Assembly (NCBI RefSeq): GCF_024451105.1
Contig: NZ_JANGEY010000003.1
Span: 62,001 to 126,000 of the forward strand
DNA from: Stutzerimonas stutzeri
GTDB lineage: Bacteria; Pseudomonadota; Gammaproteobacteria; Pseudomonadales; Pseudomonadaceae
Direction of reading: 5' to 3'
DNA: 64,000 nucleotides
This document shows positions 13,605 to 36,540 of this stretch, piece by piece. The notes beneath the pieces are model-generated. The model was not told the origin of the DNA. It made no database searches and saw nothing but the letters and a program-made list of their open reading frames with translations. Position numbers and translations under genes: made by a program. How positions within the stretch are numbered: position 1 is the first letter of the stretch; each line of letters begins with the position of its first letter.

Positions 13605-13619
13605 CACACCTGGCCTTCT

Positions 13620-13675
13620 GTAGGGGCGAATTCATTCGCCAAAACACTCCGCAAGGCGAATGAATTCGCCCCTAC
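13620..13675. repeat. Inverted-repeat element C
   Basis: Standard 21-base arms with the 14-base loop AAAACACTCCGCAA, in the reverse orientation relative to element B. It lies between etfA and the hydratase gene. Confidence 0.9.
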
Positions 13676-13719
13676 AGGCCGGGCACGCGATTGCCCTGCA
13701 CCCATCCCGGGAGACTGCC

Positions 13720-14487: not shown

Positions 14488-14504
14488 GCGACACATCAAT
14501 CCGT

Positions 14505-14561
14505 GTAGGGGCGAATTCATTCGCCCGGATACCCCGCCAGGGCGAATGAATTCGCCCCTAC
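14505..14561. repeat. Inverted-repeat element D
   Basis: Standard 21-base arms with the 15-base loop CGGATACCCCGCCAG, reverse orientation. It lies between the hydratase and pntAA. Confidence 0.9.
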
Positions 14562-14608
14562 AGGTCGGGAAACGCCCCCTTTCACGCCCAGAAATCAAGG
14601 AGAGTGGA

Positions 14609-18082: not shown

Positions 18083-18159
18083 CTGCGTGTCGCCAGCCCA
18101 CCGCAACCGGCTGGCCCGGCGCCGAGTCGAGAGCTTCCACGCGTCCCGCGCCGCAGGCA

Positions 18160-18175
18160 TCGTCCGAACGGATGA
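18160..18175. promoter_or_regulatory. Operator-like dyad 1 before YCF48 module 2
   Basis: TCGTCCG-AA-CGGATGA, one change from a perfect dyad, 122 bp before the gene start. Confidence 0.6.
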
Positions 18176-18187
18176 GCCAAGACCCCC

Positions 18188-18203
18188 TTGTCTGATCGGA
18201 CGA
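18188..18203. promoter_or_regulatory. Operator-like dyad 2 before YCF48 module 2
   Basis: TTGTCTG-AT-CGGACGA, centred 28 bp after the previous site and 100 bp before the gene. Two closely spaced sites could bind a regulator cooperatively. Confidence 0.55.
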
Positions 18204-18296
18204 TGTGGGCGCCCCTGCGCGCCGCCACAGTCTGGCCATCTCCCAGCGCCGCAGTCTGCCTTGGGCTGGCCGGGGCTGGGTCGACGAGGAGGAGTC

Positions 18297-19355
18297 ATGC
18301 AGCCAGTCACAACAATCAACAACGAATCGGCCTTGCGCGCGCTACCGCCTGCGGAGGTCGGCGCGCGGCAGGCCCCCGGCCGTTCGCGCATCTGGATCGG
18401 CCTCGGCATCGTCGGTCTGGTGGCCGCCGGTACGGTCGCTTCGTTCCTGCCCCGTCCCGCGCCGGCGTTCCCGCCCAGCGATGCCCGCCCGGAGCTGATG
18501 CTGATCAACGGCGCGGCGCAGGCCGCCGGCGCGCAGCTGGTCGCCGCCGGCGAGCTGGGCCACCTGTTCCACAGCCCGGGCGTCGGCCAGCCGTGGAGCG
18601 AGGCAACGGTCGCTCCCCAGCGCGGCTCGACCCTGACCCAGGTGTTGTTCGCCGATCCCTCGCTGGGCCTGGCGGTCGGCCATGACAACTGGATCCTGCG
18701 CAGCGAGGACGGCGGGCTGAGCTGGCAGGAGGCGCACTTCGACGGCGAAGCCGCCGAGGCGCTGATGGGCGTGTGGGGCACCCCCCGCGGGCCGCTGTTC
18801 GCCGTCGGTAGCTTCGGCCGCCTGCTGGTCTCGGACGATCGCGGCAGGACCTGGCAGCCGCGCGACACCGGCCTCGGCGACCGCCACTTCTACGGTATCG
18901 CCGGCGCCGGCGGCCAGCACCTGATGCTGGTCGGCGAGAGCGGCCTGGTCGCGCGCTCGACCGATGGCGGGCAGCGCTGGGAGCGCCTGCCGGACTTCTA
19001 CAACGGCAGCTTCTTCGGCCTGCTCGCCCTGTCGGCCAGCGACTGGCTGGTCTACGGCATGCGCGGCAAGGTGTTCCGCACCGCCGACTTTGGCGCGAGC
19101 TGGCAGGAGATCGACGCCGATACCGGTCTTTCGCTCTACGGCGGCACCCGTACCGGCGACGGCCGGGTGGTGCTGGTCGGCGAGGGCGGCGTGGTCACCC
19201 AGTCCGCCGACGGCGGGCGGACCTTCAGGCGCCTCAACGACGGCGGCGCCGGCAGCCTGTCCGGCGTCGCCGAGCTGGCCGATGGCCGGCTGATCTTCAC
19301 CGGGCAGGCCGGCATCGCCGTGGCCGGCGCACCGGCCCAATCCCCGACCCCCTGA
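18297..19355 (+). CDS. YCF48/BNR-repeat protein, membrane-anchored, module 2
   Basis: A 352-residue paralogue of the module 1 protein. A cytoplasmic stretch of about 30 residues precedes one membrane helix (IWIGLGIVGLVAAGTVASFL, about 32-51), then a beta-propeller with Asp-box units SEDGGLSW, SDDRGRTW, STDGGQRW and SADGGRTF. Shared blocks with module 1 include LVYGMRGKVFRTADFGASW and LPDFYNGSFFG. The ATG follows GAGGAGGAG. Three candidate operators stand upstream, the densest cluster in the window. The MMPL partner starts 17 bp downstream. Confidence 0.8.
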   Translation: MQPVTTINNESALRALPPAEVGARQAPGRSRIWIGLGIVGLVAAGTVASFLPRPAPAFPPSDARPELMLINGAAQAAGAQLVAAGELGHLFHSPGVGQPWSEATVAPQRGSTLTQVLFADPSLGLAVGHDNWILRSEDGGLSWQEAHFDGEAAEALMGVWGTPRGPLFAVGSFGRLLVSDDRGRTWQPRDTGLGDRHFYGIAGAGGQHLMLVGESGLVARSTDGGQRWERLPDFYNGSFFGLLALSASDWLVYGMRGKVFRTADFGASWQEIDADTGLSLYGGTRTGDGRVVLVGEGGVVTQSADGGRTFRRLNDGGAGSLSGVAELADGRLIFTGQAGIAVAGAPAQSPTP

Positions 19356-19372
19356 CCCGAGCGGACTTTCCC

Positions 19373-21781
19373 ATGGACAACCACAAGAATGCCCAGTGGG
19401 TCGACCGCTGCGCCGACCTGCTCCTGGCCAACCGCCGCTGGCTGCTGGCCCTGTTCATCCTGCTGACCCTGGTGTTCGCCGCCACGGCCACGCGCATCCG
19501 GCTCGACCCCGGCTTCTACAAGATGATCCCGCTGCAGCATCCGTACATGCAGACCTTCACCGAGTACCAGAAGGCCTTCCCGGGAGCCAACCGCGTGCTG
19601 GTCAACCTGCGCTGGAAAGGCGAGGGCGACATCTACAACGTGCAGTTCCTCAAGGCCCTGCGCGAGGCGACCGACGAGGTGTTCTTCATTCCCGGCGTCG
19701 ACCGCACCCGGGTGTCCTCGCTGTTCACCCCCGACACCCGCTACATCGAGGTCACCGAACAGGGCTTCTACGGCGACGTGGTGGTGCCGGCGAAGTTCGG
19801 CGGCAGCGAAGAGGACCTGGCGACCGTGCGCCGCAACGTCGCGCGCGCCGGGGTGATCGGCCGCCTGGTGCAGGGCGACCTGCGCGGCGCGCTGATCCGC
19901 GCCGACCTGCAGGAAATCAACCCGGAAACCGGCGCCAAGGTCGACTACGTCGAGGTCGCCAGGGCGCTCGATGCGGTGCGCGCGAGGTTCGCCAGCGAAC
20001 GGATCGAGGTCGACATCATCGGCTTCCCGGTGCTGATCGGCGACGTCGTCAGCGGCCTGAACGGGGTGTTCGTGTTCTTCCTGCTGGCCTTCGTCATCAC
20101 CGCGGTGCTGCTGCTGGCCTACTGCCGCTCGCTGCGCATGACCCTGCTGGCCCTGGTGGTGGCGCTGCTGCCGGTGATCTGGCTGCTCGGCCTGCTGCCG
20201 CTGCTGGGCTACGGTATCGACCCGATGTCGATCCTGGTGCCGTTCCTGATCTTCTCCATCGGTGTGTCCCACGCGGTGCAGATGACCAACGCCTGGAAGC
20301 TGGAGGTGCTGGCCGGGGCCAGTTCGCTGGCCGCGGCGCACAGCTCGTTCCGCCGCCTGTTCGTGCCGGGCGCCCTGGCGCTGCTGGCCAACGCGCTGGG
20401 TTTCGCGGTGATCATGCGCATCCAGATCGACAGCGTGCGCGAGCTGGGCATCACCGCCTGCCTCGGCGTGCTGCTGATGATCGTCACCAACAAGATGATG
20501 CTGCCGATCCTGCTCTCCTCGATGCGCCTGGAGGACTCCGCGCGGCGCAGCGCCACGGCCGGCGGCCAGCGCCATCCGTTCTGGTGGACGCTGTCGGCGG
20601 TGACCAGACCCGGCATCGCCCTGCTGGTCGCCGTCGTCTGCCTGGGCCTGCTCGGCGCAGGCATCGCCGAATCGCGCAAGCTGGTGATCGGCGACATCGG
20701 CAGCGGCGCCCCGGAGTTCCGCGAGGACTCGCGCTACAACCGCGACAACGCCAGCATCGTCGGCAGCTACGCGATCGGCGTCGACGTGCTCAGCGTGGTG
20801 GTCGAGGCCAAGGGCTTCGAGGGCGACGCCTGCCTGCACTACTCGGTGATGAGCGCGGTCGACCGCTTCGCCACCTTCATGCGCGGCGTGCACGGCGTGC
20901 AGTCGGTGGTCAGCGTGCCGGACATGGCCAAGGTCGGCATCGCCGCCAACAACGAGGGCAACCCGCGCTGGGCGGCGCTGCCACGCAGCAGCCAAGCGCT
21001 GCAGCAGGGCGCCGAGGCCTACAACCCCGACCTGGGCATGAACACCCAGGGCTGCACGGCGATGCAGGTGCTGATCTACACCCGCGATCACGAGGGCGCG
21101 ACCCTCCATCACCTCACCGGCGAGATCAAGCGCTTCATCGCCGAGCAGCCGCAGACCGACGCGGCCGGCCGCGCCGTCGCGTTCCGCGTGGCCGACGCTT
21201 TCCGCCTGGCCGGCGGCAACGCCGGGGTGATGGCGGCGACCAACGAGGCGGTGGAGCAGGCCGAGGTGGAGATGCTGGTGGCCATCTTCGGCGCCATCAC
21301 CCTGATGTGCCTGCTGATGTTCCGCTCCTGGAAGGCGGTGCTGTGCATCATCGCGCCGCTGGCGGTGGTGTCGGTGCTGTGCAACGCGCTGATGGCCACG
21401 CTGGGCATCGGCCTCAAGGTCGCCACCCTGCCGGTGGTGGCCCTCGGCGTCGGGGTGGGCGTCGACTACGGCATCTACCTGTTCGAGCGGGTCAAGCACC
21501 AGATCGAGGCGGAGGGCCAGGACCTGCGCAGCGCCTTCTACGAGGCCATGCGCCAGCGCGGCACGGCGGCGATTTTCACCGCGGTGACCATGTCGGTCGG
21601 CGTCGCCACCTGGGCCTTCTCGCCGCTCAAGTTCCAGGCCGACATGGGCATCCTGCTGGCCTTCATGTTCCTGGTGAACGTGTTCGGCGCGGTGCTGCTG
21701 CTGCCGGCGCTGGCCTGCTGGCTGAACGTCGGCGGCGAGCGCCGCGCGAGCGGGTTGCCCGCGTCGCAACCTGCCGCCTGA
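19373..21781 (+). CDS. RND/MMPL-family transporter, module 2
   Basis: An 802-residue MMPL transporter of the same architecture as module 1: first helix about 24-42, a periplasmic loop, a helix bundle near 225-385, a second loop, and a second bundle near 610-770. GIDPMSILVPFLIFSIGVSH and GVGVGVDYGIYLFERVK mark the two cores. It follows its YCF48-like partner and precedes the DUF1302/DUF1329 pair, together a plausible trans-envelope transport set. Differences from module 1 are concentrated in the periplasmic loops, which would fit different substrates. Confidence 0.85.
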   Translation: MDNHKNAQWVDRCADLLLANRRWLLALFILLTLVFAATATRIRLDPGFYKMIPLQHPYMQTFTEYQKAFPGANRVLVNLRWKGEGDIYNVQFLKALREATDEVFFIPGVDRTRVSSLFTPDTRYIEVTEQGFYGDVVVPAKFGGSEEDLATVRRNVARAGVIGRLVQGDLRGALIRADLQEINPETGAKVDYVEVARALDAVRARFASERIEVDIIGFPVLIGDVVSGLNGVFVFFLLAFVITAVLLLAYCRSLRMTLLALVVALLPVIWLLGLLPLLGYGIDPMSILVPFLIFSIGVSHAVQMTNAWKLEVLAGASSLAAAHSSFRRLFVPGALALLANALGFAVIMRIQIDSVRELGITACLGVLLMIVTNKMMLPILLSSMRLEDSARRSATAGGQRHPFWWTLSAVTRPGIALLVAVVCLGLLGAGIAESRKLVIGDIGSGAPEFREDSRYNRDNASIVGSYAIGVDVLSVVVEAKGFEGDACLHYSVMSAVDRFATFMRGVHGVQSVVSVPDMAKVGIAANNEGNPRWAALPRSSQALQQGAEAYNPDLGMNTQGCTAMQVLIYTRDHEGATLHHLTGEIKRFIAEQPQTDAAGRAVAFRVADAFRLAGGNAGVMAATNEAVEQAEVEMLVAIFGAITLMCLLMFRSWKAVLCIIAPLAVVSVLCNALMATLGIGLKVATLPVVALGVGVGVDYGIYLFERVKHQIEAEGQDLRSAFYEAMRQRGTAAIFTAVTMSVGVATWAFSPLKFQADMGILLAFMFLVNVFGAVLLLPALACWLNVGGERRASGLPASQPAA

Positions 21782-21788
21782 TCGATAG

Positions 21789-21819
21789 CCGGGGGCTGTC
21801 CGTGACGGGCAGCCCCCGG
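21789..21819 (+). terminator. GC-rich hairpin after MMPL 2
   Basis: CCGGGGGCT pairs perfectly with AGCCCCCGG. No T-run follows, so it may be a weak terminator or an mRNA 3' end stabiliser. The rest of the 21782-22098 gap contains only the operator half-site below and the DUF1302 leader. Confidence 0.5.
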
Positions 21820-21918
21820 TAATTCCGCTGATTTCGAATGCGCGCCGGAGTGCCGCGCAGGGGCGTTCGCGCGCCCGCGAAAAGGGCTGGCCGGAAGCCG
21901 AAAAAGCGCCGATCCGCC

Positions 21919-21934
21919 TAGTCCGAACCAAGTA
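21919..21934. promoter_or_regulatory. Operator half-site before the DUF1302 gene
   Basis: TAGTCCG-AA-CCAAGTA has a perfect left half and a poor right half of the shared palindrome, 165 bp before the DUF1302 start. Confidence 0.4.
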
Positions 21935-22098
21935 TGTGAGCGCTTTTTTCGCGGGTAATCATGAACTCGCTCGACGATCAGCCTGCGGTTGTCGAGGCAG
22001 CAGCCAACTGCCGTGCGCCTTGCAAGTGACGGGTCTGCCGAGATTCAGGGGCGTATCAGGAAAACCATAACCAAGGTCCTCCGAGAGGAGCTGAACTG

Positions 22099-23676
22099 AT
22101 GAATTACAAATACAAGAAACGTGGCGTGTCCCGCCTGCCGCAGCATTTCAGACTCAGCCTGCTCGGCTGCGCCGTGAGCGTGCTGGCGCTGCCGACCGCG
22201 CAGGCCGGCTCCTTCGAGTTCGGCGACGGCATCGAAGTCGACTATCTGGCCACCTTCAACTACGGCCTGAACATGCGTGCCGAAAAACAGGCGCATGCGC
22301 TGCTGAACAACATCAACGGCGACGACGGCAACCGCAACTTCGATCGCGGCAGCTTCTTCAACAACCGCGTCAGCCTGCTCGCCGAGATGGACATCCACAA
22401 GGGCGACTACGGCCTGATGCTGCGCGGCTCGTCGTTCTACGACTTCGCCTACATGCGCGACAACGACAACCGCTCGGCCAACACCATCAACAAGCTCGGC
22501 GACACCGACGAGTTCAGCTCCGAGGCCGAGGACCGCGTCGGCACCCGCACCCGCCTGCTGGATGCCTACCTGTACGGCGGCACCACCGTCGGCGACAGCG
22601 GCTTCCTCGACGTGCGTGTCGGCAACCAGGTCGTCGCCTGGGGCGAGAGCCTGTTCATCTCCGGCATTTCCGGGGTGCAGGGGCCGGTCGATGCCACCAA
22701 GGCCAACATCCCCGGCACCGAGATCAAGGAAGTCCTCCTCCCCGAACTGCAGGCCTCCGCGCGCTTCTCGTTCAACGACTGGACCCTGCTCGGCTACTAC
22801 CAGTTCAAGAACCATCCCTACGAACTGTCGCCGGCCGGCGAGTACTTCTCCTACGCCGACATGATCGGTCCGGGTGGCCAGTACATCCGCTTCATGCCGG
22901 GCGACCTGGCGACCCTGCTGAATTTCGGGGCGGCCATTCCGCGTACCGCAAGCGACAACGCCCGCGACGGCGGCGAGTGGGGCATGGGCGTGCGCTACAA
23001 GCTCACCCCCTACACCGAGGTGGGCGCCTACCGCCTGCGCTACCACGAGCGCACGCCGAGCCTGCTGCTCAACATCGACCCCGTCACCTTCTTCCCGACC
23101 TCCTACACCCTCAAGTACTTCGAGGACGTCGACCTGACCGGCGCCAGCCTCTCCACCCGCGTCGGCGACTGGCAGGTGTCCGGCGAGGTCAGCTACAAGG
23201 ACGGCCTGTCGCTGCTGACCAGGAACGGCGTGTCGCGCGGCGAGGCGACCCAGGCGCAGGTGTCGCTGCTGAAGACCTGGGGCAAAAGCTGGATCGCGCC
23301 GCAGGCCTCGTTCGCCGGCGAATTCGGCGCGGTGCACATCAACGACGTCGACGACGGCGGCGTGAGCAACCTCGCCAACGACCGCAACGCCCAGTTCGGC
23401 CAGTTCATGGTCACCCTGACCTACCCGAACGTGTTCAACGGCTGGGATCTGGACGTGCCGTTCAGCTACGGCCACGCCTTCAACCAGTCCTCGGTGAGCA
23501 CCTTCGGCTTCGGTGGCGACGGCGACGCGCGCGCCAGCCTCGGCGCCAGGTTCAAGTACCTGAACAACCTCGAGATGGGCCTGACCTACAACGCCTACCT
23601 GGGCTCGGCCGACCCGCTCGAGCGTCCGCTGGCCGACAGGGACTTCGTGGCCTTCAACCTCAAGTACAACCTGTAA
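22099..23676 (+). CDS. DUF1302 outer-membrane beta-barrel protein (copy 1)
   Basis: A 525-residue protein with a signal peptide ending near PTAQA-GSF (about residue 35) and the DUF1302 pattern: GNRNFDRGSFFNNR, a long run of amphipathic beta-strands, VVAWGESLFISGISG and ending in FNLKYNL (aromatic/hydrophobic C-terminus typical of barrels). It is likely an outer-membrane porin for hydrophobic substrates. It is followed 17 bp later by DUF1329, its usual partner. Copy 2 at 62792 shares FFNNR-like, WGESLF and FSYADMIGPG blocks. Substrate inferred from the steroid context only. Confidence 0.8.
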   Translation: MNYKYKKRGVSRLPQHFRLSLLGCAVSVLALPTAQAGSFEFGDGIEVDYLATFNYGLNMRAEKQAHALLNNINGDDGNRNFDRGSFFNNRVSLLAEMDIHKGDYGLMLRGSSFYDFAYMRDNDNRSANTINKLGDTDEFSSEAEDRVGTRTRLLDAYLYGGTTVGDSGFLDVRVGNQVVAWGESLFISGISGVQGPVDATKANIPGTEIKEVLLPELQASARFSFNDWTLLGYYQFKNHPYELSPAGEYFSYADMIGPGGQYIRFMPGDLATLLNFGAAIPRTASDNARDGGEWGMGVRYKLTPYTEVGAYRLRYHERTPSLLLNIDPVTFFPTSYTLKYFEDVDLTGASLSTRVGDWQVSGEVSYKDGLSLLTRNGVSRGEATQAQVSLLKTWGKSWIAPQASFAGEFGAVHINDVDDGGVSNLANDRNAQFGQFMVTLTYPNVFNGWDLDVPFSYGHAFNQSSVSTFGFGGDGDARASLGARFKYLNNLEMGLTYNAYLGSADPLERPLADRDFVAFNLKYNL

Positions 23677-23693
23677 CAGCAGGAGACACAGCG

Positions 23694-25094
23694 ATGAAGA
23701 CGACTCTTTTCCGGGCCAGCCTGCTGAGTGCAGGCATCCTCTGCGCATTCAGCCAGACCGCCGCGGCCAAGGTTTCCCCCGAAGAGGCCGCGCGCCTGGG
23801 CAAGGACCTGACCTGCTCCGGCGCCGAGAAGGCCGGCAACGCCGACGGCAGCATTCCGGCGTTCTCCGGCAAGTGGCTGGGCGCCCCCGACCACATCAAG
23901 CACGAGGGGACCGGCAAGTTCTGGGAAAACCCCTACGCCAACGAAAAGCCGCTGTTCACCATCACCGCACAGAACATGGAGCAGCACGCCGACAAGCTCT
24001 CCGACGGCCTCAAGGCGCTGTTCAGGAAGTACCCGGAGACCTTCAAGATCCCGGTGTATACCAGCCACCGCGACTTCCGCTTCCCCGACTGGGTCTGCGA
24101 CGCCTTCAGGAAGAACGCCACCACCGCCGAACTGGTCGACGACGGCCTCGGCCTCAAGGCGGTGACCGGCTCCCAGCCGTTCCCGATCCCGCAGACCGGC
24201 CTCGAGCTGCTCTGGAACATCAACAACACCGGCCCGCAGCCGCACAAGACCGAGCTGACCACCCAGGACGTGGTGGTCTACCCGGATGGCAACCTGGCCT
24301 GGGGCAAGATGGAGAACAAGTTCCTCGGCGTGCGCTCCGAGCCGGGCGTGATGCGCGACACCACCGACTTCACCCCGCCCTACGGCGGCATCCAGTCGCT
24401 GACCATCCAGAAGACCCACCTGCCGCTGCGCGACAAGGGCACGGTGTATTCGACGCGGGAGACCTTCAACTACAAGACCCTGCCGCGCGACGTGTACATC
24501 TACAACCCGGGTACCCGCCGCGTGCGCCAGGCGCCGTCGTTCGGCTTCGACATGCCGCAGGGCGCCGGTGGCTTCCGCACCGTCGACGAACACCACATGT
24601 TCAACGGCTCGCCGGAGCGCTACGACTGGAAGATCGTCGGCAAACGCGAGATGTACATCCCCTGGAACGCCTTCAGCACCAACCAGGCCGAGGTGAAGAT
24701 CGCCGACCTGATCAAGCACAAGGGCCACGTCAACACCGAGCCCATGCGCTTCGAGCTGCAACGCGTCTGGGTGCTGGAAGCGACCCTCAAGCCCGGCTTC
24801 CGCCACCAGTACGCCAAGCGCGTGTTCTACATCCAGGAAGACACCTGGGGCGCGGCGCTGTCCGACCAGTACGACGGCCGCGGCCAGCTGTGGCGTACCG
24901 TGCTGGGCAACTGGATGTGGGCCTACGAGTCGCAGACGCCCTACTGGGGCATCGCCGCGCACCATGACCTGATCTCCGGCGCCTACCTGGTGGACAACAT
25001 CGCCAACGAGACCGGCGCGCCGATCCTGGAAACCAAGGAAAACTGGACGCCGGCCATGTTCAGCGCCGAAGCGGCGGCCCGCTGGGGGCGTTGA
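23694..25094 (+). CDS. DUF1329 envelope protein (copy 1)
   Basis: A 466-residue secreted protein (signal peptide ending near QTAAA-KVS). Typical DUF1329 features are the N-terminal AGNADGSIPAFSGKW block, RRVRQAPSFGFDMP and NGSPERYDWK. The fold is expected to resemble LolA/LolB-like lipid carriers, but that is inference. It is paired with the DUF1302 barrel upstream, and a terminator follows. A paralogue is at 61307 with the same motifs. Confidence 0.8.
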   Translation: MKTTLFRASLLSAGILCAFSQTAAAKVSPEEAARLGKDLTCSGAEKAGNADGSIPAFSGKWLGAPDHIKHEGTGKFWENPYANEKPLFTITAQNMEQHADKLSDGLKALFRKYPETFKIPVYTSHRDFRFPDWVCDAFRKNATTAELVDDGLGLKAVTGSQPFPIPQTGLELLWNINNTGPQPHKTELTTQDVVVYPDGNLAWGKMENKFLGVRSEPGVMRDTTDFTPPYGGIQSLTIQKTHLPLRDKGTVYSTRETFNYKTLPRDVYIYNPGTRRVRQAPSFGFDMPQGAGGFRTVDEHHMFNGSPERYDWKIVGKREMYIPWNAFSTNQAEVKIADLIKHKGHVNTEPMRFELQRVWVLEATLKPGFRHQYAKRVFYIQEDTWGAALSDQYDGRGQLWRTVLGNWMWAYESQTPYWGIAAHHDLISGAYLVDNIANETGAPILETKENWTPAMFSAEAAARWGR

Positions 25095-25255: not shown

Positions 25256-25337
25256 GTGCGCGCGCCCTGGTTGGGGCAGGTCATTCACCGTGACGTAACT
25301 ATCGGGTTACGGCTATGGACAGACAAGGAGCAGGACT

Positions 25338-25907
25338 TTGAACAACCCCCTGGAACTGGAATCCGTCATCGCGAGCACGCGGGAGATCCTTGCCCAGTTG
25401 CTGGTTCTCGACATCGAGGATATCGAGGCCGACAGCAGCATCGTCGAGGATCTCTCCGCCGATTCCCTGGACATCGTCGATCTGAGCTTTCAGCTCGGCA
25501 GACGCTACGGCTGCGTCCTGCCCAAGACCAGCGTACTGGACCACGCCGCTGCGGTATGCGGCGATCTGCAGGCATTCGTCGACGCCGGCGGCCTGACCCC
25601 GGCCGGCAAGGCGCTGCTCGAGGGGAGCCTGAACGCCTATGCCGATGGCCAGTTGCGCCCGGGCATGAAGCCGGCCGATGTGTTCGCCGCCACGACGGTC
25701 CGCAACTGGGCTGCCCAGTGTCGCAACCTCTTCGATCACCTGCCGGAATCCTGCCCCCAGTGCGGCGGCAAGCATGCCAGCCTCAGCCCGCAGAACCTGG
25801 TGGTATGCAGCGCCTGCAGCGCACGCCTGAGTCCTGCCGACGGCGATCAGGTTTCCCGGCTGCTGGTCGAGAGATTCGTCGCGGCCAACCTGCAAGAACG
25901 CGTCTAG
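25338..25907 (+). CDS. Acyl carrier protein with C-terminal zinc ribbon
   Basis: A 189-residue carrier. The N-terminal 85 residues form an acyl carrier domain with the phosphopantetheine serine in ADSLDIVD (S43). After a linker of about 50 residues come four cysteines, C139-x2-C142 and C157-x2-C160, a zinc-ribbon pattern. Ordinary carriers are 75-90 residues. The start is TTG at 25338, supported by AAGGAG exactly 7 bp upstream, and there is no in-frame alternative with a ribosome site. It is the first gene of the MerR-controlled operon and most likely carries the growing chain for the downstream ketosynthases. The zinc ribbon could dock a partner enzyme; that is inference. Confidence 0.8.
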   Translation: MNNPLELESVIASTREILAQLLVLDIEDIEADSSIVEDLSADSLDIVDLSFQLGRRYGCVLPKTSVLDHAAAVCGDLQAFVDAGGLTPAGKALLEGSLNAYADGQLRPGMKPADVFAATTVRNWAAQCRNLFDHLPESCPQCGGKHASLSPQNLVVCSACSARLSPADGDQVSRLLVERFVAANLQERV

Positions 25908-25915
25908 GGGCCGCC

Positions 25916-27190
25916 ATGCGGGCGCGCGAAGTCTGCGTCACCGGCTACGGTCTGGTGGCTCCCACGGTGCTGGACGGCGACAGTCTGTTTCGGCGGATCT
26001 GCGAGAATCGCTCCTGCGTTCGCAGCCACCCATTGTTCGAGGAGCTCGGTTTTCCGAACACGGCGGCCGGCTATCTCGATGACGAGCAGTGGCTGCACAT
26101 GTTCGACGCCTATGACGGCGGTCCGGTCGTACCCCCGCGGCAGTGCGTGCTGGCGACCTATGTCGCCAGACAGGCCCTGGGCCACGCCGGGCTGACGGCG
26201 AATGCGTTCGGGGGGAGCCGCAGCGGCCTTTTCCTCGGCGCCAACAAGTACTGCGCCAACGTCCAGGATCTCGACCGCCTCGGCATGTGCCTGAACGATG
26301 ACAGCCTGGACCTCGACCGTCTCCTCGGGCAGCAGCCGGACACCGAGCCGGTGTTCTCGCGGCGGGTCGACCAGCAGACCTTCCAGCTGGCCGCAGAGCT
26401 GGGGATCAGCGACCACATCTCCACCCATTCCGACGCCTGCGCAGCCGGAACGGTGGCCATCGGCAGCGCCTATCGGGCGATCGAGCGTGGCGAGATCGAC
26501 CTTGCACTGTGCGGCGCCGTCGAGCTGATGGCCAACGAGCTGCCCTATTACATGTTCGGCAGCCTCGGCGCGCTGTGCCAGCAGAGCGAGCTGCCACCCG
26601 AGCGGCAGAGTCGACCGTTCATGCGCGACCGCAGCGGTTTCGTGCTCAGCGAGGGGGCTGCCTTTCTGGTCCTGGAGTCGCGCGAGCACGCCGAACGCCG
26701 CGGGGCGCACGTGCTCGGCCGGGTGCTGGGTTATGCCAACCACTGCGAGGCGGAGAAGATGACGGCCAGCAGCAAGGATGGCAGCAAGTACGCGCGCTGC
26801 ATGGAGGAGGCGATAGAGGATGCCGGTCTGCTGCCGCATGCCGTGCAGCACGTGAATACCCATGGCACCTCGACTCAGGTCAATGACAGCTGCGAGGCCC
26901 TGGCTCTCAAGCGGGTCTTTGGCGAGCAGCTGGATGCCATCACCCTCACCGCCAACAAGTCGGCCGTCGGCCACTCGCTGGCCGGCAGCGGCGCCATCGA
27001 GGCGGTGCTTTCGCTGATCAGCCTGCGCGATGGCGTGCTCCTGCCGACGCTGAACTACTGCCCGGATGGAGCCCAGTTTCCCGAGCTGAAATTCCTGACC
27101 GAGCCCAGGCGCCAGTCGGTGCATGTGGTGCTGTCCAACTCCTTCGGCTTCGGCGGCATCAACAGTTCCATCGTGCTGGGGAGGGCTTGA
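25916..27190 (+). CDS. Beta-ketoacyl synthase, catalytically intact (KS1)
   Basis: A 424-residue FabF-type condensing enzyme. All catalytic residues are in place: Cys in SDACAAG (C175), His in VNTHGTST (H316), Lys and His in NKSAVGH (K348, H353). The C-terminal SNSFGFGGINSS signature is intact. It would elongate an acyl chain on the carrier protein with malonyl-ACP. An unusual N-terminal insertion (about residues 45-75 and 120-155) sets it apart from housekeeping FabF. It lies 8 bp after the carrier gene and 2 bp before its degenerate partner KS2. Confidence 0.9.
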   Translation: MRAREVCVTGYGLVAPTVLDGDSLFRRICENRSCVRSHPLFEELGFPNTAAGYLDDEQWLHMFDAYDGGPVVPPRQCVLATYVARQALGHAGLTANAFGGSRSGLFLGANKYCANVQDLDRLGMCLNDDSLDLDRLLGQQPDTEPVFSRRVDQQTFQLAAELGISDHISTHSDACAAGTVAIGSAYRAIERGEIDLALCGAVELMANELPYYMFGSLGALCQQSELPPERQSRPFMRDRSGFVLSEGAAFLVLESREHAERRGAHVLGRVLGYANHCEAEKMTASSKDGSKYARCMEEAIEDAGLLPHAVQHVNTHGTSTQVNDSCEALALKRVFGEQLDAITLTANKSAVGHSLAGSGAIEAVLSLISLRDGVLLPTLNYCPDGAQFPELKFLTEPRRQSVHVVLSNSFGFGGINSSIVLGRA

Positions 27191-27192
27191 GC

Positions 27193-28254
27193 ATGACCCT
27201 GTTGCAGGGAAGGCCGGTGTACCTGGTGGCGGCCTCCGTACTCAATGCCGCCGGCAGCGAGGCCGGCGATCTCCACGGCGCGGTGCCACAGCCGCTGCCT
27301 CTGCCGTTCGCCGCGGAGCGAACGGCGCATGCCGTGGCGGCTCCGCGGCTGCCGGCGGATCTGTTCGACCGCAAGATCCAGCGCAGCGTCGAGCCGCAGG
27401 GGCTGCGCCTGCTGCACTGCGCCGCGCGACTGGCGCCGGCTCTGCGCGAGTTGCGACTGCCGGCGCAGCGGGTAGGGCTGACGGCGGCGATACCCGAGGT
27501 TGACGCGCCCAGTCCCTGCTGGGATGCGGTCGAAGCCATCGAGCGCGAGCCGGACAGGCTTCTCGCGCAGCTGCTGGCCAACACCCCGCCGCTACACGCG
27601 CTGACCCTGCTCAACAGCTCGGTCATGGCCTATGTCGCCGAGGCGCTGGACTGCCGGGGCGTCATGGCGGGCTATTGCGCGCAGGTCGGTGCCGGCTTCG
27701 ATGCGCTGATCGAGGCGGTTGCGGAAGTCGCCGAGGGGCGGGCCGATGCGGCGCTGTCGGTCAGTTGCAGCCCGAACCTGACGCCGGCCCTGTTCCTGCG
27801 CGACGAGCCGGGCCAGGACGTGCTGTACGGGGAGGGGGCCGCGGCGCTGCTGCTGGCTGCCCAGCCACCGCTCGAAGGCCTCGTGGTGCGGGTGGCCGGT
27901 TACGGCCGTGGCTTCAGTGCCGACCCGCAGCGCCGCCCGGCAGTGCTGCAGCAGGCCGTGCGCCAGGCGCTGCAGGCGGAGCGCCTGACGCCGCGCGACA
28001 TCGACTGGCTGGGCGGCAGCGTCCCCGATCTTGCCGCCAGCGAGCCGTTCGCTGCCTGTGCCGTCCTGCGCGATACCCGGGAGGTAACCGGCGAACTGGG
28101 CGCCAGCGGCCTTGCTACCGAGATCGCTGCCCTGATCGTCGACCCGCGTCATGAGCGCGAGCCCCGCCTGCGCCATGTGCTGCTGCCGAGTGTCAGCCGG
28201 GCAGGGCACTGCGACGCCATGCTGCTGGCAATCACCTGGAAGGAGAAGGCATGA
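27193..28254 (+). CDS. Degenerate ketosynthase-like protein, chain-length-factor-like (KS2)
   Basis: A 353-residue protein with the thiolase/ketosynthase fold but without working catalytic residues. The region around the expected nucleophile reads GYCAQVGAG (C162), offset from the normal ACAAG pattern, and neither the THGTxT nor the NKxxxGH motif exists. It is shorter than KS1 by about 70 residues, mostly in the C-terminal half. By analogy with the KS/CLF pairs of type II polyketide synthases it may be the inactive half of a heterodimer with KS1. The ATG follows GGAGGG at 7 bp, and the end overlaps KS3 by 4 bp. Confidence 0.7.
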   Translation: MTLLQGRPVYLVAASVLNAAGSEAGDLHGAVPQPLPLPFAAERTAHAVAAPRLPADLFDRKIQRSVEPQGLRLLHCAARLAPALRELRLPAQRVGLTAAIPEVDAPSPCWDAVEAIEREPDRLLAQLLANTPPLHALTLLNSSVMAYVAEALDCRGVMAGYCAQVGAGFDALIEAVAEVAEGRADAALSVSCSPNLTPALFLRDEPGQDVLYGEGAAALLLAAQPPLEGLVVRVAGYGRGFSADPQRRPAVLQQAVRQALQAERLTPRDIDWLGGSVPDLAASEPFAACAVLRDTREVTGELGASGLATEIAALIVDPRHEREPRLRHVLLPSVSRAGHCDAMLLAITWKEKA

Positions 28255-29549
28255 ACGGAGCAAGGGTGGTGATCACCGGGATGGGGGCGGTGACCGGCTT
28301 CGGTTTCCAATGGCAGGACATGTGGCAGCAGATGCTGCTCGGCAGGCACTGCGTAGCGCCCTGGCAACCGGAGGAAATCGAGGACGGCGGCTTTCCGGTG
28401 CGGTTCGCCGCGGCCGTCGACGTCACGCGCCTGTCGTCCGGACTGCAGGGGCATCCGGCGTGGGACATGCCGATGGAGAAACGCAGTCGCCTTGGCTGGA
28501 TCGCCGCCACCCAGGCGGTCGCCGACAGCGGCCTGGCCGTCAGCGAGCTCAGCCGTGCCGCGGTGCTGACGGCATCCGGCGCGCCCCAGCACATGCTCGC
28601 CGACATGCGTCTGGCGCTGCCCGCCGATGGCGGCCAGGGGGCGGACTGGTGCCACCTGATGCAGCGTTCTGCGCAGGTCCACACGGATGGCTCGCTGCGA
28701 CAGGCCAACGACCGGCTGTCGCGGCTGATCGCCGCGGACTTCTCCTGCGAAGGCCCGGTGCTCAACGTCAGCAGCGCCTGCGCGGGCGCTGCGCAGGCGA
28801 TCGGCAATGCCTTCCGGATGATCCGGCGCGGCGAGGTGGATGTCGCCGTGGCCGGCGGGGCCGATTCGGTACTCAATCTCGACACCATGAGCGCGCTCTA
28901 CCTGCTGGGTGCCGTCAGCAGCGAGCAGCGCTGGGGCAGCGAGCTGTGTCGGCCGTTCGATCGCGACCGCAGCGGCCTGGTCGCCGGCGAAGGCGGTGGC
29001 TTCGTGGTCCTCGAGCGGCTGGAGCGGGCGCTGGCCCGTGGCGCCACGCCCTATGCCGAGGTGCTCGGCTATGGCAGCAGTCTGGATGGCTACAAGGTCA
29101 CCGCTCCGGATCCGCAGGGGCGCGGCGCCGCCCTGGCCATGCGCGCGGCTCTGGAGGATGCCGGTGTGCGGCCGCGGCAGGTCGATCTGGTCAATGCCCA
29201 CGGGACGTCCACGCCGCTCAACGATGTGGCGGAAACCCTGGCGATCAAGAGCGTGTTCGCCGAGGAGGAGCATTACCGCCAGCTGGCTGTTTGCGCCAAC
29301 AAGTCGCAGTTCGGCCATCTGATCGCCGCGGCGGGGGCACCCGAGTTCATCGTCACGGCGCTTTCCTGCCGCGACGATCGCATTCCGCCGACCCTCAACC
29401 TGCAGCACCCGGACCCCGACTGCGATCTGGACTACTGCGCGCAGCGGGCAGTCAGCCGCCCGGTGCAGGTGGCGCTCAGCAACTCGTTCGGTTTCGGCGG
29501 CCTCAACGCGTCGCTGGTGCTGGGCAAATACCGGGAGAGCCGAGTATGA
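28251..29549 (+). CDS. Beta-ketoacyl synthase, catalytically intact (KS3)
   Basis: A 432-residue FabF-type condensing enzyme with C177 (SSACAGA), H317 (NAHGTST), K351 and H356 (NKSQFGH) and the C-terminal SNSFGFGGLNAS signature. It is clearly divergent from KS1, so it is not a recent duplicate. ATGA overlaps at both ends (with KS2 and KS4) imply coupled translation and fixed stoichiometry. It probably performs a second set of elongations, or initiation, with KS4 as inactive partner. Confidence 0.9.
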   Translation: MNGARVVITGMGAVTGFGFQWQDMWQQMLLGRHCVAPWQPEEIEDGGFPVRFAAAVDVTRLSSGLQGHPAWDMPMEKRSRLGWIAATQAVADSGLAVSELSRAAVLTASGAPQHMLADMRLALPADGGQGADWCHLMQRSAQVHTDGSLRQANDRLSRLIAADFSCEGPVLNVSSACAGAAQAIGNAFRMIRRGEVDVAVAGGADSVLNLDTMSALYLLGAVSSEQRWGSELCRPFDRDRSGLVAGEGGGFVVLERLERALARGATPYAEVLGYGSSLDGYKVTAPDPQGRGAALAMRAALEDAGVRPRQVDLVNAHGTSTPLNDVAETLAIKSVFAEEEHYRQLAVCANKSQFGHLIAAAGAPEFIVTALSCRDDRIPPTLNLQHPDPDCDLDYCAQRAVSRPVQVALSNSFGFGGLNASLVLGKYRESRV

Positions 29550-30748
29550 AGCACGTCGATCAGCGGATCGCCATCAGCGGTGCCGGTTGCGTGCTGGCCA
29601 CCGGCTGGGGCGTCGAACCCTTCTGGGCGGCCGCGCGGGCCGGGCGCAGCGGCATCGGACCACTGCGTGCCAGGCACTTCCACAGTCGGCGGGTGGTCGC
29701 CTTCGGCCACGTCGCCGAGGACGTCCAGCAGCGCTGCCGTCAGGAGGTGCCGCGCAACCTGCACCGCTACTGCACGCCGGCGCTGGCCTGGGGCGTCAGT
29801 GCGGTCGGCCAGGCGCTCGCGGAGGCCGGGATCGATCCGCAGCAGGGGCGGCTGCGCCTGGGACTCTATGGCTGCCAGGGGGGCTACACCCATCCCTCGC
29901 TCGATGCCTACGCCGAGTTGCTGCGCGATTGCTCCAGCGAGCTCGGCCTGGACAAGACCGGGCTCAGCCGGCGGGTGCTGCAGGAGCGCGCCCTGGACCC
30001 CTTCCTGGTGCTGAAGAGCCTCAGCAACGGTCTGCTCGGGGTGGTCAGCCTGACCCACCGTCTGGAGTGCGAGGGCAGCGCCTTCATGCAGGGTGTCGCC
30101 GGCAACCAGGCGGCCTTGCGCGAGGCCTGCGCCGCGCTGCGCAGCGGCCGTATCGATGCCGCCATCGTGGTCGGCTCGGGCAGCGAACTCGACGCGCTGG
30201 CGCTCGCCGCGCTGGTTCGCGCCGGAGTCATTTCCGCCAATGGCACCGAGGCCTTCCTGGCGTTCGACGAACGCGGCCGGGGCGGCATTGCCGGTGAAGG
30301 CGCCGCGGCACTGGTGCTGCAGCGCTGCGCGGATCTGCCGACCGCGGCGCACGTGTGCCTGGTCGGTCAGACGGCGCACGCCAACCTCGACGCCCTGCAG
30401 CTGCCGGCCGAGTCGACCGACCTGCTGGTCTGCACTGCCAGCGGCGAGCCGGAGCAGGACCGGCGGCTGAGTGTCCGCCTGGGCCGGATCCCGGCCGCGC
30501 ATGTCGGCGCAGCGCAGCCGCTTACCGGAATCCTCAGCGCAGCACCCAGCCTGGTCGATCTGATTCTGGCTCGCAGCGCCATGCAGGCCGGCTACGCGCC
30601 CCCGCTCGCCGGGCTGAGGCATCCGGTCGACGACCGGCTGCCCTTCGTCGTCGGCAGCGGACGCGAGGTGCCGATCCGCCGGGCCACAGTGGTCGGCCGC
30701 GACGACAACGGCTTCAGCGCCTGCTACCGGCTCGAGCTGGCCAGCTAG
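29546..30748 (+). CDS. Degenerate ketosynthase-like protein, chain-length-factor-like (KS4)
   Basis: A 400-residue ketosynthase-fold protein. The nucleophile region reads SAFMQGVAGNQAAL, so the cysteine is lost, and the THGTxT and NKxxxGH histidines are absent. The N-terminal half (ISGAGCVLATGWGVEPFW) and the central GEGAAALVLQR loop still align with ketosynthases. It follows intact KS3 with a 4-bp overlap, repeating the intact-plus-degenerate order of KS1/KS2. A hairpin occupies the 68-bp gap after it. Confidence 0.75.
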   Translation: MKHVDQRIAISGAGCVLATGWGVEPFWAAARAGRSGIGPLRARHFHSRRVVAFGHVAEDVQQRCRQEVPRNLHRYCTPALAWGVSAVGQALAEAGIDPQQGRLRLGLYGCQGGYTHPSLDAYAELLRDCSSELGLDKTGLSRRVLQERALDPFLVLKSLSNGLLGVVSLTHRLECEGSAFMQGVAGNQAALREACAALRSGRIDAAIVVGSGSELDALALAALVRAGVISANGTEAFLAFDERGRGGIAGEGAAALVLQRCADLPTAAHVCLVGQTAHANLDALQLPAESTDLLVCTASGEPEQDRRLSVRLGRIPAAHVGAAQPLTGILSAAPSLVDLILARSAMQAGYAPPLAGLRHPVDDRLPFVVGSGREVPIRRATVVGRDDNGFSACYRLELAS

Positions 30749-30816: not shown

Positions 30817-33687
30817 ATGGATTACCGCGACTATGTAAGGCCCCGCTACGTCGAACTGATGCAGGCGCTGGGTCTGGAGTGCCAGTTCCACCGTGCCAGT
30901 GGCAGCAAGCTGTTCCGCCGTGACGCCGCGGGAGCCGAGGTGGCCGTGACCGACTTCCTGGGCGGCTATGGTGCCGCGCTGTTCGGCCATAACGACCCCG
31001 AACTGGTCGAGCTGCTCTGCGCTCTGCTGCGCGAGCAGGCGCCCTTCAACGCACAGATGTCGGTGCGCAGGGCCGCCGGCGAGCTGGGGCGGCGGCTGAG
31101 CGAGGCGCTCGGCCAGGAGCTGGGCTGCGCCGAGCACTTCGTGTCGACCTTCTCCAACAGCGGCGCCGAAGCGGTGGAGATCGCCATCAAGCACGCCGAG
31201 TTCAGCCGCCAGAAGCGTTTGCAGGCCGCCTTCGACCAGCGGGACTTCGTCCTGGCCGGTCTTTCCGGCGGCCAGCAGGCGTACGTCGAGTTCGATGTGG
31301 GCGAACTCGAGCTGCCGGCCGGCCTGCTGCCGGCGCACCTGACCACGGTGACCCTGCGCCAGCTGGCCGAGGCCGTGCGCCAGCACAACCTGGCCCAGCT
31401 GCATGCCGCTCCGGTGTTCGTCGCCATGCGGCGCAGCTTCCACGGCAAGCTGGTCAGCAGTGTGCAGCTCACCTACGGGCGGCAATACCGCCAGCCTTTC
31501 GCCCGCTTCGGGCTGAATGTCGATTTCGTCGACCCCGAGCAGCCCCAGCAGCTCGAGGAGCTGCGCCAGCGGCACCGCCGCGACTGGCTGAGTCTGGAGC
31601 TCGCCGGCGCGCGCCCGGTGCTGCGGCGGGAGCCGTGCAGCAGCATCGCCGCGATACTGCTCGAGCCGATCCAGGGCGAGGGCGGCATCCACGAAATTCC
31701 CGCAGAAGCCTGTCTGGCGCTGCGCCGGCTGTGCAACGAACTGGGTTGTCCGCTGATCGTCGACGAGGTGCAGTCGGGCTTCGGCCGCACCGGCACGCTG
31801 CTGGCCAGCAGCCAGCTGCGCCTGCTCGGCGACTACTACTGCCTGTCCAAGGCGCTGGGTGGTGGCCTGACCAAGATCGCCGCCACGCTGATCCGTGCCA
31901 GCCACTACGAGGCCGACTTCAGCTACATCCACAGCTCGACCTTCGCCGAGGACGACCTGTCCTGTCGCGTGGCTCTGCAGTCCCTGCAGCGCCTGCAGGC
32001 GGACGGCGGGGCGATGCTCGAGGACATCCGCAGCAAGGGCGAGTATCTCAAGGCTTCGCTGTGCGAGCTCAAGGACTACTACCCGGACGTGATCGCCGAC
32101 GTGCGCGGCCGCGGCCTGCTGCTCGGCATCGAGCTGCACGACCTGAGCGACAGCAGCTCGCTGGTGCAGGCCTCGGCGCAGTACAACGATGCGCTCGGCT
32201 ATCTGATCGCCGGCTACCTGCTGCAGCACGAGCACCTGCGCGTGGCCCCGTCGGGCAGCAACGCCAACGTGATCCGCCTGGAGCCGCCGGCGTGCATCAG
32301 TCATGCCGAGATCGACGGCCTGCTCGCGGCGCTGCAGCGGGTCTGCGAGATGCTCCGCCGGCGCGATGCACTGCCGCTGGCCGCGGCGGTGTGCGCCGAC
32401 CTGCTGCCCGAAGTGCCGCCACGCGAGGAGAGCTTCGCCGGGGAGAGCCCGCGCCCAAAGCCTGAGCAGGGCACCCCGGTGGTAGCCAGGGTGGCCTTCA
32501 TCAACCATCTGATCGACACCGGCATGCTCGGCGACGTCGACCCATCGCTCGCCGTGCTCGACGCGGAGCAGAAGCGCGCCTTCGTCGAACGCACGGCTCC
32601 CGAGCGCAGGGCCGCGCCCATAGGCCCGGTGACCATTCGCTCGCGGCTGGGCACGGCGGTGGAGTTCACCCTCTATCCGCTGTGCATGGACTCCAGCGCA
32701 ATGGCCGGATACATGGCCAGCGGCGACCTGCAGCCGATCCGCGAGGAGATCGCCGCACGCATCCGCGATGCCCGCGCCGACGGCTGCCGCATCGCCGGAC
32801 TGGGGATGTACACCTCGATCGTCACCAACAACTGCCAGTCCCTGCAGATCCCGGATGTCGCGCTGACCTCCGGCAACGCCCTGACCATCGGCATGGGGCT
32901 GGAGGCCATCGAGCAGGGCTGCGCCCGCCAGGGCATCGACCTGGCCAGGGAGACCGCCGCAGTGGTCGGCGCGGCCGGCAACATCGCCTCGACCTACGCC
33001 TCGCTGCTGTCGATGCAGGTCGATCGTCTGCTGCTGATCGGCAGCGGCCGCGAGGGCTCGCTGCGCCGCCTGGAGAAGACTGCCGAGCTGATCTACATGG
33101 ATGCCGCACGCTCGATTCGTGCCGGCACGAGCGAGCACGACCGGCTGGCCAGGCGCCTGCTGCAGCTGGAGGGGGTCGAGGCGTTGCTGCAGCTGTATGG
33201 CGATGCTCCGGATCTCGGCCGCCGGCTGTTCCGTTTCGTGGCCGAGCGCCTCGGGGACGAGGCGTTCATCGTCGTCGGCAACGATCTCGACAGCCTGCGC
33301 CAGGCGCGCATCGTGCTCTGCGCAGCCAATGCGCCGCAGGCCTTCCTGCAGGCCGGGCATTTCGCCGAGAACGGCGTGGTCTGCGATATCGCCGTGCCGC
33401 TCAACGTCGACCAGGCGGTGGCGGCGCAGCGTCCCGACCTGCTCTACATGCACGGCGGCATCGTGCAGACCCCGTTCGGCGACGGCCTGGCGGAAAACGT
33501 GCGCGCCTATCTCGGCGAGGGACAGCTCTACGCCTGCATGGCCGAGTCGGTGCTGATGGGGCTGGCGGGGATGAGCCGGCACTACTCCTACGGCGATATC
33601 AGCCGCGAGCAGGTACAGCAGATCCGCGCCATCGCCGCGACCCACGGCTTCGGGCTGGCCCGGATCAAGACGGACAACTCCCTGTAA
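30817..33687 (+). CDS. Class III aminotransferase fused to an acyl-ACP-reductase-like domain
   Basis: A 956-residue two-domain protein. Residues 1 to about 480 are a PLP-dependent class III (omega) aminotransferase: QGEGGIHEIPAE, the PLP-binding Asp in VDEVQSGFGRTG (D316) and the Schiff-base Lys in LSKALGGG (K345). Residues about 555-956 match cyanobacterial long-chain acyl-ACP reductase (AAR): GLGMYTSIV, the NADPH loop GAAGNIA (718-724), LYMHGGIVQTP, and QLYACMAE, whose C907 aligns with the thioester-forming cysteine of AAR. Predicted activity: reductive release of acyl-ACP as an aldehyde, then transamination to a primary amine. PigE of prodigiosin synthesis uses the same logic; as I recall, its domains run in the opposite order. 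Nine bases separate it from the fabG-like gene. Confidence 0.85.
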   Translation: MDYRDYVRPRYVELMQALGLECQFHRASGSKLFRRDAAGAEVAVTDFLGGYGAALFGHNDPELVELLCALLREQAPFNAQMSVRRAAGELGRRLSEALGQELGCAEHFVSTFSNSGAEAVEIAIKHAEFSRQKRLQAAFDQRDFVLAGLSGGQQAYVEFDVGELELPAGLLPAHLTTVTLRQLAEAVRQHNLAQLHAAPVFVAMRRSFHGKLVSSVQLTYGRQYRQPFARFGLNVDFVDPEQPQQLEELRQRHRRDWLSLELAGARPVLRREPCSSIAAILLEPIQGEGGIHEIPAEACLALRRLCNELGCPLIVDEVQSGFGRTGTLLASSQLRLLGDYYCLSKALGGGLTKIAATLIRASHYEADFSYIHSSTFAEDDLSCRVALQSLQRLQADGGAMLEDIRSKGEYLKASLCELKDYYPDVIADVRGRGLLLGIELHDLSDSSSLVQASAQYNDALGYLIAGYLLQHEHLRVAPSGSNANVIRLEPPACISHAEIDGLLAALQRVCEMLRRRDALPLAAAVCADLLPEVPPREESFAGESPRPKPEQGTPVVARVAFINHLIDTGMLGDVDPSLAVLDAEQKRAFVERTAPERRAAPIGPVTIRSRLGTAVEFTLYPLCMDSSAMAGYMASGDLQPIREEIAARIRDARADGCRIAGLGMYTSIVTNNCQSLQIPDVALTSGNALTIGMGLEAIEQGCARQGIDLARETAAVVGAAGNIASTYASLLSMQVDRLLLIGSGREGSLRRLEKTAELIYMDAARSIRAGTSEHDRLARRLLQLEGVEALLQLYGDAPDLGRRLFRFVAERLGDEAFIVVGNDLDSLRQARIVLCAANAPQAFLQAGHFAENGVVCDIAVPLNVDQAVAAQRPDLLYMHGGIVQTPFGDGLAENVRAYLGEGQLYACMAESVLMGLAGMSRHYSYGDISREQVQQIRAIAATHGFGLARIKTDNSL

Positions 33688-33696: not shown

Positions 33697-34434
33697 ATGC
33701 ACAACAAGACTGCGGTGGTCACCGGCGGCAGCCGGGGCATCGGCAGGGCGATCGTCCGGGTGCTGGCAGGAGCCGGCTACCGGATTGCCTTCAGCTACGT
33801 GCGCGACGAGGCAGCGGCGATGGCCCTGCGCGAAGAGATCGAGGCGATGGGGCGACCGTGCCTGGCCTTGCGCTGCGACGTCGGCGAGAGCGACAGCATC
33901 GCCGCCTTCTTCGCGCGAGTGGAGGAGGAATACCAGCGCATCGACCTGCTGGTGAACAACGCCGGCATCACCCGCGACGGCCTGCTGGCGGTGCTGCCCG
34001 AAGAGGACATCGTCGGTGTCATCCAGACCAACCTGGTCGGCACGCTGCTGTGCTGCCAGCAGGCGCTGCCGGGAATGCTGCGCCGGCGCAGCGGCAGCAT
34101 CGTCAACCTCAGTTCGGTGGCCGCCCAGCGCCCGGGCAAGGGACAGAGCAACTATGCCGCCGCCAAGGGCGGCGTCGAGGCGCTGACCCGCGCCCTGGCC
34201 GTCGAGCTGGCGCCGCGCAACATCCGCGTCAACGCCATCGCTCCCGGCATCGTGCGCACCGAGATGAGCGAGGCGCTGATCGGCAGCATGGCGGAAGCAA
34301 TCCGCGAGCGCCTGCTGATCAAGCGCTACGCCGAGCCCGAGGAAATCGCCGAGGCGGTGCTGTTCGTGGCCGAGCGCGCACTCTACATGACCGGGGAGGT
34401 CCTGCCGGTCAACGGCGGGCTGAAAATGCCATGA
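33697..34434 (+). CDS. 3-oxoacyl-ACP reductase, FabG-like
   Basis: A 245-residue SDR of FabG type: TGGSRGIGRA cofactor loop, NNAGIT, catalytic Ser in LSSVAA, Tyr/Lys in YAAAKGG, and the closing LPVNGGLKMP. It would reduce the beta-keto group after each condensation. No dehydratase or enoyl reductase of FabZ/FabA/FabI type is in the operon, so either the product keeps hydroxyls or the housekeeping enzymes complete the cycle. Overlaps the next gene by 4 bp. Confidence 0.88.
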   Translation: MHNKTAVVTGGSRGIGRAIVRVLAGAGYRIAFSYVRDEAAAMALREEIEAMGRPCLALRCDVGESDSIAAFFARVEEEYQRIDLLVNNAGITRDGLLAVLPEEDIVGVIQTNLVGTLLCCQQALPGMLRRRSGSIVNLSSVAAQRPGKGQSNYAAAKGGVEALTRALAVELAPRNIRVNAIAPGIVRTEMSEALIGSMAEAIRERLLIKRYAEPEEIAEAVLFVAERALYMTGEVLPVNGGLKMP

Positions 34435-35195
34435 GCAAGACTCGTACGATTCTCGTCACCGGCGCGGCGAAAGGCATCGGCAGGGCCGTCGCGGAGTCCT
34501 TTGCAGGGGCGGGCGGCCATCGCCTGATCCTGCTCGATCGCGACCTGAGCGAACTGGAGGGCTGGACGGCCGGCCATCCGGCACGGGAGAGCATCGAGTC
34601 CCACTTCGCCGACATCGCCGATCTGCCCGGTCTGCAGCGGCTGTTCGAGGACCTGGCCCGTCGCCACGGGCAGATCGACGTGCTGGTGAACAGCGCCGGC
34701 ATCTGCGACGAGAACGAGCCCGAGGACCTGGACACCTGGCACAGGGTGATCGCAGTGAACCTCAGCGGCACCTTCTACGTGACCGCGCTGTGCCTGCCGC
34801 TGATCCCCCGGCATGGGCGGATCGTCAACATGGCCTCGATCCTCGGCCGCGCCGGCAAGGTGCGCAACACCGCCTATTGCGCCTCGAAGCACGGCATCGT
34901 CGGGATGACCAAGGCGCTGGCGCTCGATCTGGCCGCGCAGCAGATCACGGTGAACGCGATCCTGCCGGCCTGGGTCGACACGCCGATGCTGCGCCACGAA
35001 CTGGCGGTGCAGGCCGGCATGGCCGGCCTGACTCCCGAGCAGATCCAGCGCAATGCCAGGCGCAAGCTGCCCTTGCGCCGCTTCATCCAGAGCGAGGAGG
35101 TGGCTGCGCTGGTGCGTTATCTGGCCAGCCCCGAGGCGGCGGGTGTCACCGCCCAGAGCCTGGTGGTCGATGGCGGCGCCGGATTGGGGATGTAG
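34431..35195 (+). CDS. SDR-family reductase
   Basis: A 254-residue short-chain dehydrogenase with TGAAKGIG, VNSAGI, MASILG and the YCASK catalytic pair. It is distinct from the FabG-like protein: an extended segment (HELAVQAGMAGLTPEQIQ) forms a lid typical of hydroxyacid or small-alcohol SDRs such as 3-hydroxybutyrate dehydrogenase-like enzymes. It probably tailors the chain or intermediate. Translation is coupled to fabG-like by ATGA, and the next gene starts 1 bp after its stop. Confidence 0.8.
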   Translation: MSKTRTILVTGAAKGIGRAVAESFAGAGGHRLILLDRDLSELEGWTAGHPARESIESHFADIADLPGLQRLFEDLARRHGQIDVLVNSAGICDENEPEDLDTWHRVIAVNLSGTFYVTALCLPLIPRHGRIVNMASILGRAGKVRNTAYCASKHGIVGMTKALALDLAAQQITVNAILPAWVDTPMLRHELAVQAGMAGLTPEQIQRNARRKLPLRRFIQSEEVAALVRYLASPEAAGVTAQSLVVDGGAGLGM

Positions 35196-36471: not shown

Positions 36472-36540
36472 CCCACCCCTGCTGCCCGCCGCCTGCGGGG
36501 CACGGCGGTGCGGCATTTCATGAATTTCGAGGAGTTACCC

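Follow-up and report, generated by a model that had tools for sequence, protein, structure and literature searches.

The koreenceine cluster, kecA-kecK, encodes an alkaloid-antibiotic pathway of Pseudomonas koreensis (PMC6498172), and in P. putida KT2440 it corresponds to PP_2777-PP_2787 (PMC10829540). The first of these genes, PP_2777, was assayed in a 2025 study under the name PpACP2, where its "unusual predicted structure" was pointed out; PpACP2 gave no activity with PpFabH2 and PpFabG4, whereas the standard acyl carrier protein (ACP) did, and the authors suggested either an incompatibility or a wrong annotation (PMC12490732). PpFabG4 is PP_2783, which corresponds to kecG by position. Both the pathway and the gene are thus already known, while the zinc-ribbon cassette, the pattern in which it is present or absent, and the split fold presented here appear to be undescribed in the main texts on the cluster. 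The word "zinc" is absent from the main texts (supplements aside) of PMC6498172 and PMC12490732. Among the papers searched, none described an ACP bearing a zinc ribbon.

Two other proteins are relevant for comparison. LysW is an amino-group carrier holding a C4 zinc ribbon; in LysW, however, the ribbon is the protein itself, with no phosphopantetheine attached, and the profile match to it is not significant (E 0.2). PhlB, of the PhlACB acyltransferase (PpATase), is a Pseudomonas protein with a zinc ribbon that acts alongside enzymes of the thiolase fold, but it is a separate subunit and, unlike KecA, no carrier.

The carrier gene and its operon

In the window (the whole stretch of 64,000 nucleotides analyzed here), a gene at 25338-25907 on the forward strand encodes a protein of 189 amino acids with a Pfam PP-binding domain, at a position orthologous to kecA/PP_2777 (27 homologues compared). 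The score against PP-binding was 33.5 bits, above the gathering cut-off of 20.8, and the DSL serine motif of ACPs is present as ADSLD, invariant in our alignment (A1). Its serine, S43 (25464-25466), is the predicted phosphopantetheine attachment site and would carry the growing chain, in agreement with the carrier motif recognized in the initial annotation.

Downstream on the same strand we found kecB (25916-27190), a ketosynthase (KS) with a Cys-His-His triad (Pfam ketoacyl-synt N and C; DACAAG, NTHGT and GHS motifs), followed by kecC (27187-28254), a divergent KS-like or chain-length-factor (CLF)-like partner that is fast-evolving, has no Pfam match and only weak KS similarity, and is devoid of the histidine motifs. 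A second pair is formed by kecD (28251-29549), again a ketosynthase with the triad (Pfam; SACAGA, NAHGT and GHL motifs), and kecE (29546-30748), CLF-like, which matches only ketoacyl-synt N in Pfam and in which MQG replaces the active-site cysteine in the alignment. They are followed by kecF (30817-33687), a class III aminotransferase fused to an acyl-ACP reductase (Pfam Aminotran_3, PigE model match; PMC10829540), the FabG-like reductase gene kecG (33697-34434; PP_2783 by position, PMC12490732), and kecH (34431-35195), a second short-chain reductase gene identified from its reading frame and homologues. The last three genes are kecI (35197-36471, DUF1302 by Pfam, with a putative start), kecJ (36508-37374, LolA-like by Pfam, start uncertain) and kecK (37393-40002), encoding an MMPL/HAE3-type transporter according to Pfam and further profile matches.

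The order is therefore ACP, KS, CLF-like, KS, CLF-like, aminotransferase-reductase, two reductases and three export genes. As gene order and content match kecA-kecK, the gene at 25338-25907 is kecA and, as judged from sequence, encodes the ACP dedicated to a koreenceine-type type II polyketide synthase (PKS). Position, downstream order and operon content are the same as for PP_2777 (PpACP2), of which the window gene is an orthologous member with no difference in kind. The description of the locus as an ACP with a zinc-ribbon motif adjoining two KS/CLF-like pairs and a reductase was thus correct. Moreover, to the question whether such carriers always neighbour paired ketosynthases the answer was yes: wherever a ribbon-bearing locus is long enough and its cluster intact, the four KS genes and kecF come after kecA.

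The start of kecA is a TTG, as previously annotated, preceded 7 nt upstream by the ribosome-binding site AAGGAG (25325-25330, forward strand; read from the sequence). In 24 of the 26 homologous loci of the genome collection the start is an ATG at the same codon, and TTG was found only in the window, Pseudomonas sp. A-1 and P. oryzagri; purine-rich GGAG or GGGAG sites lie at the same place upstream of the homologues' starts. Considering that the homologues start at the same codon, the TTG is the genuine start codon, with no particular significance.

Two further observations concern the surroundings of kecA. Directly upstream of it, the window contains a second export-like block (18087-25094: YCF48-like repeat, HAE3/MMPL, DUF1302 and DUF1329-like), which was seen within 10 kb in only one of the 26 loci, that of Pseudomonas sp. 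A-1. In P. mangiferae the kec cluster looks decayed (locus positions 10001-15136): the reading frame of KecA changes beyond the ribbon, KecD ends at two thirds of its length, only a fragment of KecE is left, neither KecF nor the two reductases are present, and part of RND2 comes next.

Conservation of the cysteines and predicted fold of KecA

The four cysteines proposed to form the ribbon are exactly where they had been placed, in a first knuckle C139-P-Q-C142 (25752-25763) and a second knuckle C157-S-A-C160 (25806-25817). The resulting C-x2-C-x14-C-x2-C pattern is invariant in 27 of 27 proteins (the window plus 26 loci from the genome collection). Absence of the cysteines from close homologues, the observation named at the outset as speaking against the ribbon, was looked for, and every close homologue retains all four. 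C59 and C128 are likewise invariant in the alignments. The ribbon segment has a dN/dS of 0.17, compared with 0.14 for the ACP core (133 pairs), so that purifying selection on the two is similar. The pattern is not due to chance.

A survey found kecA in 15 of 328 Pseudomonadaceae genomes; 14 of these matches cover 187-189 of the 189 positions, and the fifteenth (G025) spans positions 1-171. The C-terminal half had no match in 368 other Gammaproteobacteria sampled, using a profile that could miss a Photobacterium-type KecA.

We then considered the fold predicted by AlphaFold2, which is only moderately firm (of five models the best reached pLDDT 84, the others 79 down to 46). Whole ACPs of 75-85 amino acids from solved structures align by VIA-align to model residues 3 to about 136, the best example being 8xks_R (Z 9.4, 83 residues, 2.3 Å), while sequence profiles of ACPs match only to about residue 63-69. 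The model has helices at 112-117 and 121-134, and residues 112-135 (25671-25742; PADVFAATTVRNWAAQCRNLFDHL) are likely ACP helices III-IV, as suggested by these helices, by the structural alignment and by a small gain in score of the spliced ACP. The structural alignment indicates that the ACP ends with predicted helix 121-134 (in TTVRNWAAQC...) and that an insertion lies within about residues 63-111 (25524-25670; edges uncertain, placed by VIA-align of the model), apparently splitting the ACP bundle; the insertion is also found in homologues that have no ribbon. When it was spliced out, some ACP profiles gained no more than a few bits, for example from 28.5 to 33.0 for PRK05350, and a control splice with the ribbon gave 28.6. 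In addition, folding the C-terminal half by itself yielded a poor model (pLDDT 65.7, pTM 0.40), in keeping with its first helices being part of the ACP core. KecA thus appears to have a split ACP fold, a claim drawn mainly from predicted structure. Foldseek with the whole model matched mainly ACPs, none of them at E <= 0.001, an outcome that does not show the remaining parts of KecA to be without a known fold.

In comparison with canonical AcpP-type ACPs, KecA shares helices I-II, the DSL serine motif and, at the level of the whole fold, structural Z scores up to 9.4, but differs by the insertion inside the bundle, the ribbon and an extra C-terminal helix; it also does not reach the cut-offs of the NCBIfam ACP models (for TIGR00517, 31.7 bits where 70.45 are required). 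The ribbon cassette comprises 31 residues, 135-165 (25740-25832), with edges good to 1-2 residues from the alignment with ribbon-less orthologues. In the model, residues 147-149 and 155-157, between the cysteine pairs, form short strands, so that the two CxxC knuckles with a predicted hairpin between them have the layout of a zinc ribbon. The C-terminal helix is predicted at 169-184 (25842-25889), and the equivalent segment is kept in ribbon-less KecA.

Kec clusters with a ribbon-less KecA

A plasmid search with KecA and KecF revealed one kec cluster in Photobacterium sp. DA100, carried by a megaplasmid. This syntenic and unannotated cluster has the same gene order, and its KecF is 40% identical, whereas its KecA has 152 amino acids and no ribbon. 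A second ribbon-less cluster, with a KecA of 153 amino acids, was found in genome G1270 by a family-wide search started from G194; the family search started from G192 found no kec cluster. A single short 16S match, together with the genus count, suggests that the family of G1270 is Enterobacteriaceae. The G1270 cluster, outside Pseudomonadaceae, keeps the export genes kecI-K; kec-like clusters without kecI-K have been reported in Xenorhabdus and Streptomyces (PMC6498172). KecE is also shorter in both ribbon-less clusters, with 291 amino acids in Photobacterium, where it is very short, and at most about 331 in G1270, versus 400.

Alignment showed that ACP, insertion and (S/T)SV-NW helix are all retained in both ribbon-less proteins, and that the counterpart of residues 135-165 of the KecA described here is missing as a single 31-residue block. 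The ribbon segment is therefore present or absent as a unit among kec clusters. In the KecF tree, a single branch parts the 12 ribbon-bearing rows from the 2 ribbon-less ones, with full support for each side. Being sister groups, the two states do not polarise the change; gain and loss cannot be told apart because, in the stretches read, no kec-type ACP lies near the other KecF homologues.

Possible roles of the ribbon

The initial annotation proposed that the ribbon serves as a docking module for the KS pairs or the reductase. The constant company of the ribbon with KS pairs and KecF holds in intact loci of sufficient length, but two syntenic clusters with both kinds of partner have a ribbon-less KecA, so that, if these clusters are functional, the ribbon cannot be a general docking requirement.

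We tentatively favour, with a confidence just under even, a structural Zn(Cys)4 ribbon that would add a lineage-specific surface to KecA as a pathway-only carrier. The insertion would interrupt the predicted four-helix ACP bundle, which helix 121-134 would then complete. Between helix 121-134 and the C-terminal helix, KecA of the Pseudomonas-type lineage has the C-x2-C-x14-C-x2-C ribbon (residues 135-165), which most likely binds one structural zinc ion. Its likeliest job would be to provide a distinct rigid surface on a KecA that kec partners use and primary fatty-acid enzymes do not. In favour of this reading are the invariant cysteines, the purifying selection, the predicted strands between the knuckles, the operon match, the paired KSs and KecF that come after ribbon-bearing KecA in intact loci of sufficient length, the ribbon block missing on one branch and the ACP fold alignment over residues 3-136. 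Moreover, PP_2777 failed with the FAS-type enzymes tested, the kec reductase PP_2783 among them, and all of these worked with the standard ACP (PMC12490732). This failure is compatible with a lineage-specific surface, but the insertion, poor loading or misfolding may also explain it. Against our preferred reading, a kec ACP can go without the ribbon if the ribbon-less clusters work. The ribbon is probably a lineage-specific elaboration, outside the core kec machinery.

The pattern of conservation within the ribbon bears on a simpler proposal, in which the ribbon is a folding staple only, with zinc stabilising the junction between the last ACP helix and the C-terminal helix and no dedicated partner. 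In favour of a staple, loop 143-156 is fairly variable whereas the cysteines and the second knuckle account for most of the conservation, and the ribbon sits between two helices that stay adjacent when it is missing. On the other hand, ribbon-less KecA keeps both helices without any staple, and the conserved second knuckle (CSAR-L-P-DGD) exceeds bare metal ligands; we consider the staple somewhat unlikely. For the lineage-specific surface, the variable loop does not favour a conserved binding face at 143-156, although the second knuckle is conserved.

The short KecE of both ribbon-less clusters could instead mean that the ribbon docks one particular kec partner, such as this CLF-like subunit. 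Considering that both differences lie on the same single branch, they represent one event at most, and KecC differs too, making such a docking site improbable. That the cysteines hold no structural metal, being a redox switch, a sensor or incidental, is very improbable: no Pfam zinc-ribbon family matched KecA, but a predicted hairpin flanked by two CxxC knuckles is the usual layout for structural zinc, and eS27 and LysW, both zinc ribbons, are among the best PDB profile matches, although these are non-significant (E about 0.16-0.2).

When several pathways share one cell, how each ACP meets its proper partners is a question of current interest. With KecA there are an added, apparently modular piece predicted to bind metal, orthologues without this piece and one report of failure with ordinary fatty-acid enzymes; therefore, the role of the extra piece is directly testable. 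Going beyond the lineage-specific surface, the split ACP with its removable ribbon cassette might be an address tag that separates koreenceine acyl traffic from fatty-acid synthesis, a proposal that we regard as rather doubtful; if it were true, the natural ribbon-plus and ribbon-minus orthologues would constitute a ready-made swap experiment. Ribbon and split fold would also give a sequence-based reason for the "unusual predicted structure" of PP_2777 and for its possible mis-annotation.

KecF homologues were also met outside kec clusters. Those of G020, G088, G143, G251, G260 and Paraburkholderia had neither a KecA-like ACP nor a four-KS set in the stretches read. G1260 and G1142 were rejected as kec clusters, having a weak KS match only, and the Streptomyces plasmid matches lie beside large SDR/PKS genes, with no kec-type ACP annotated. 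In G143, the KecF-like aminotransferase-reductase (minus strand, near 10165-12984 of its locus) is part of a 3015-codon open frame and is perhaps fused to further domains. In Paraburkholderia phymatum pBPHY01 (9347-12325 of its locus), the KecF-like protein has its own N-terminal carrier-like domain, with a GIDSIS motif, fused to the aminotransferase-reductase.
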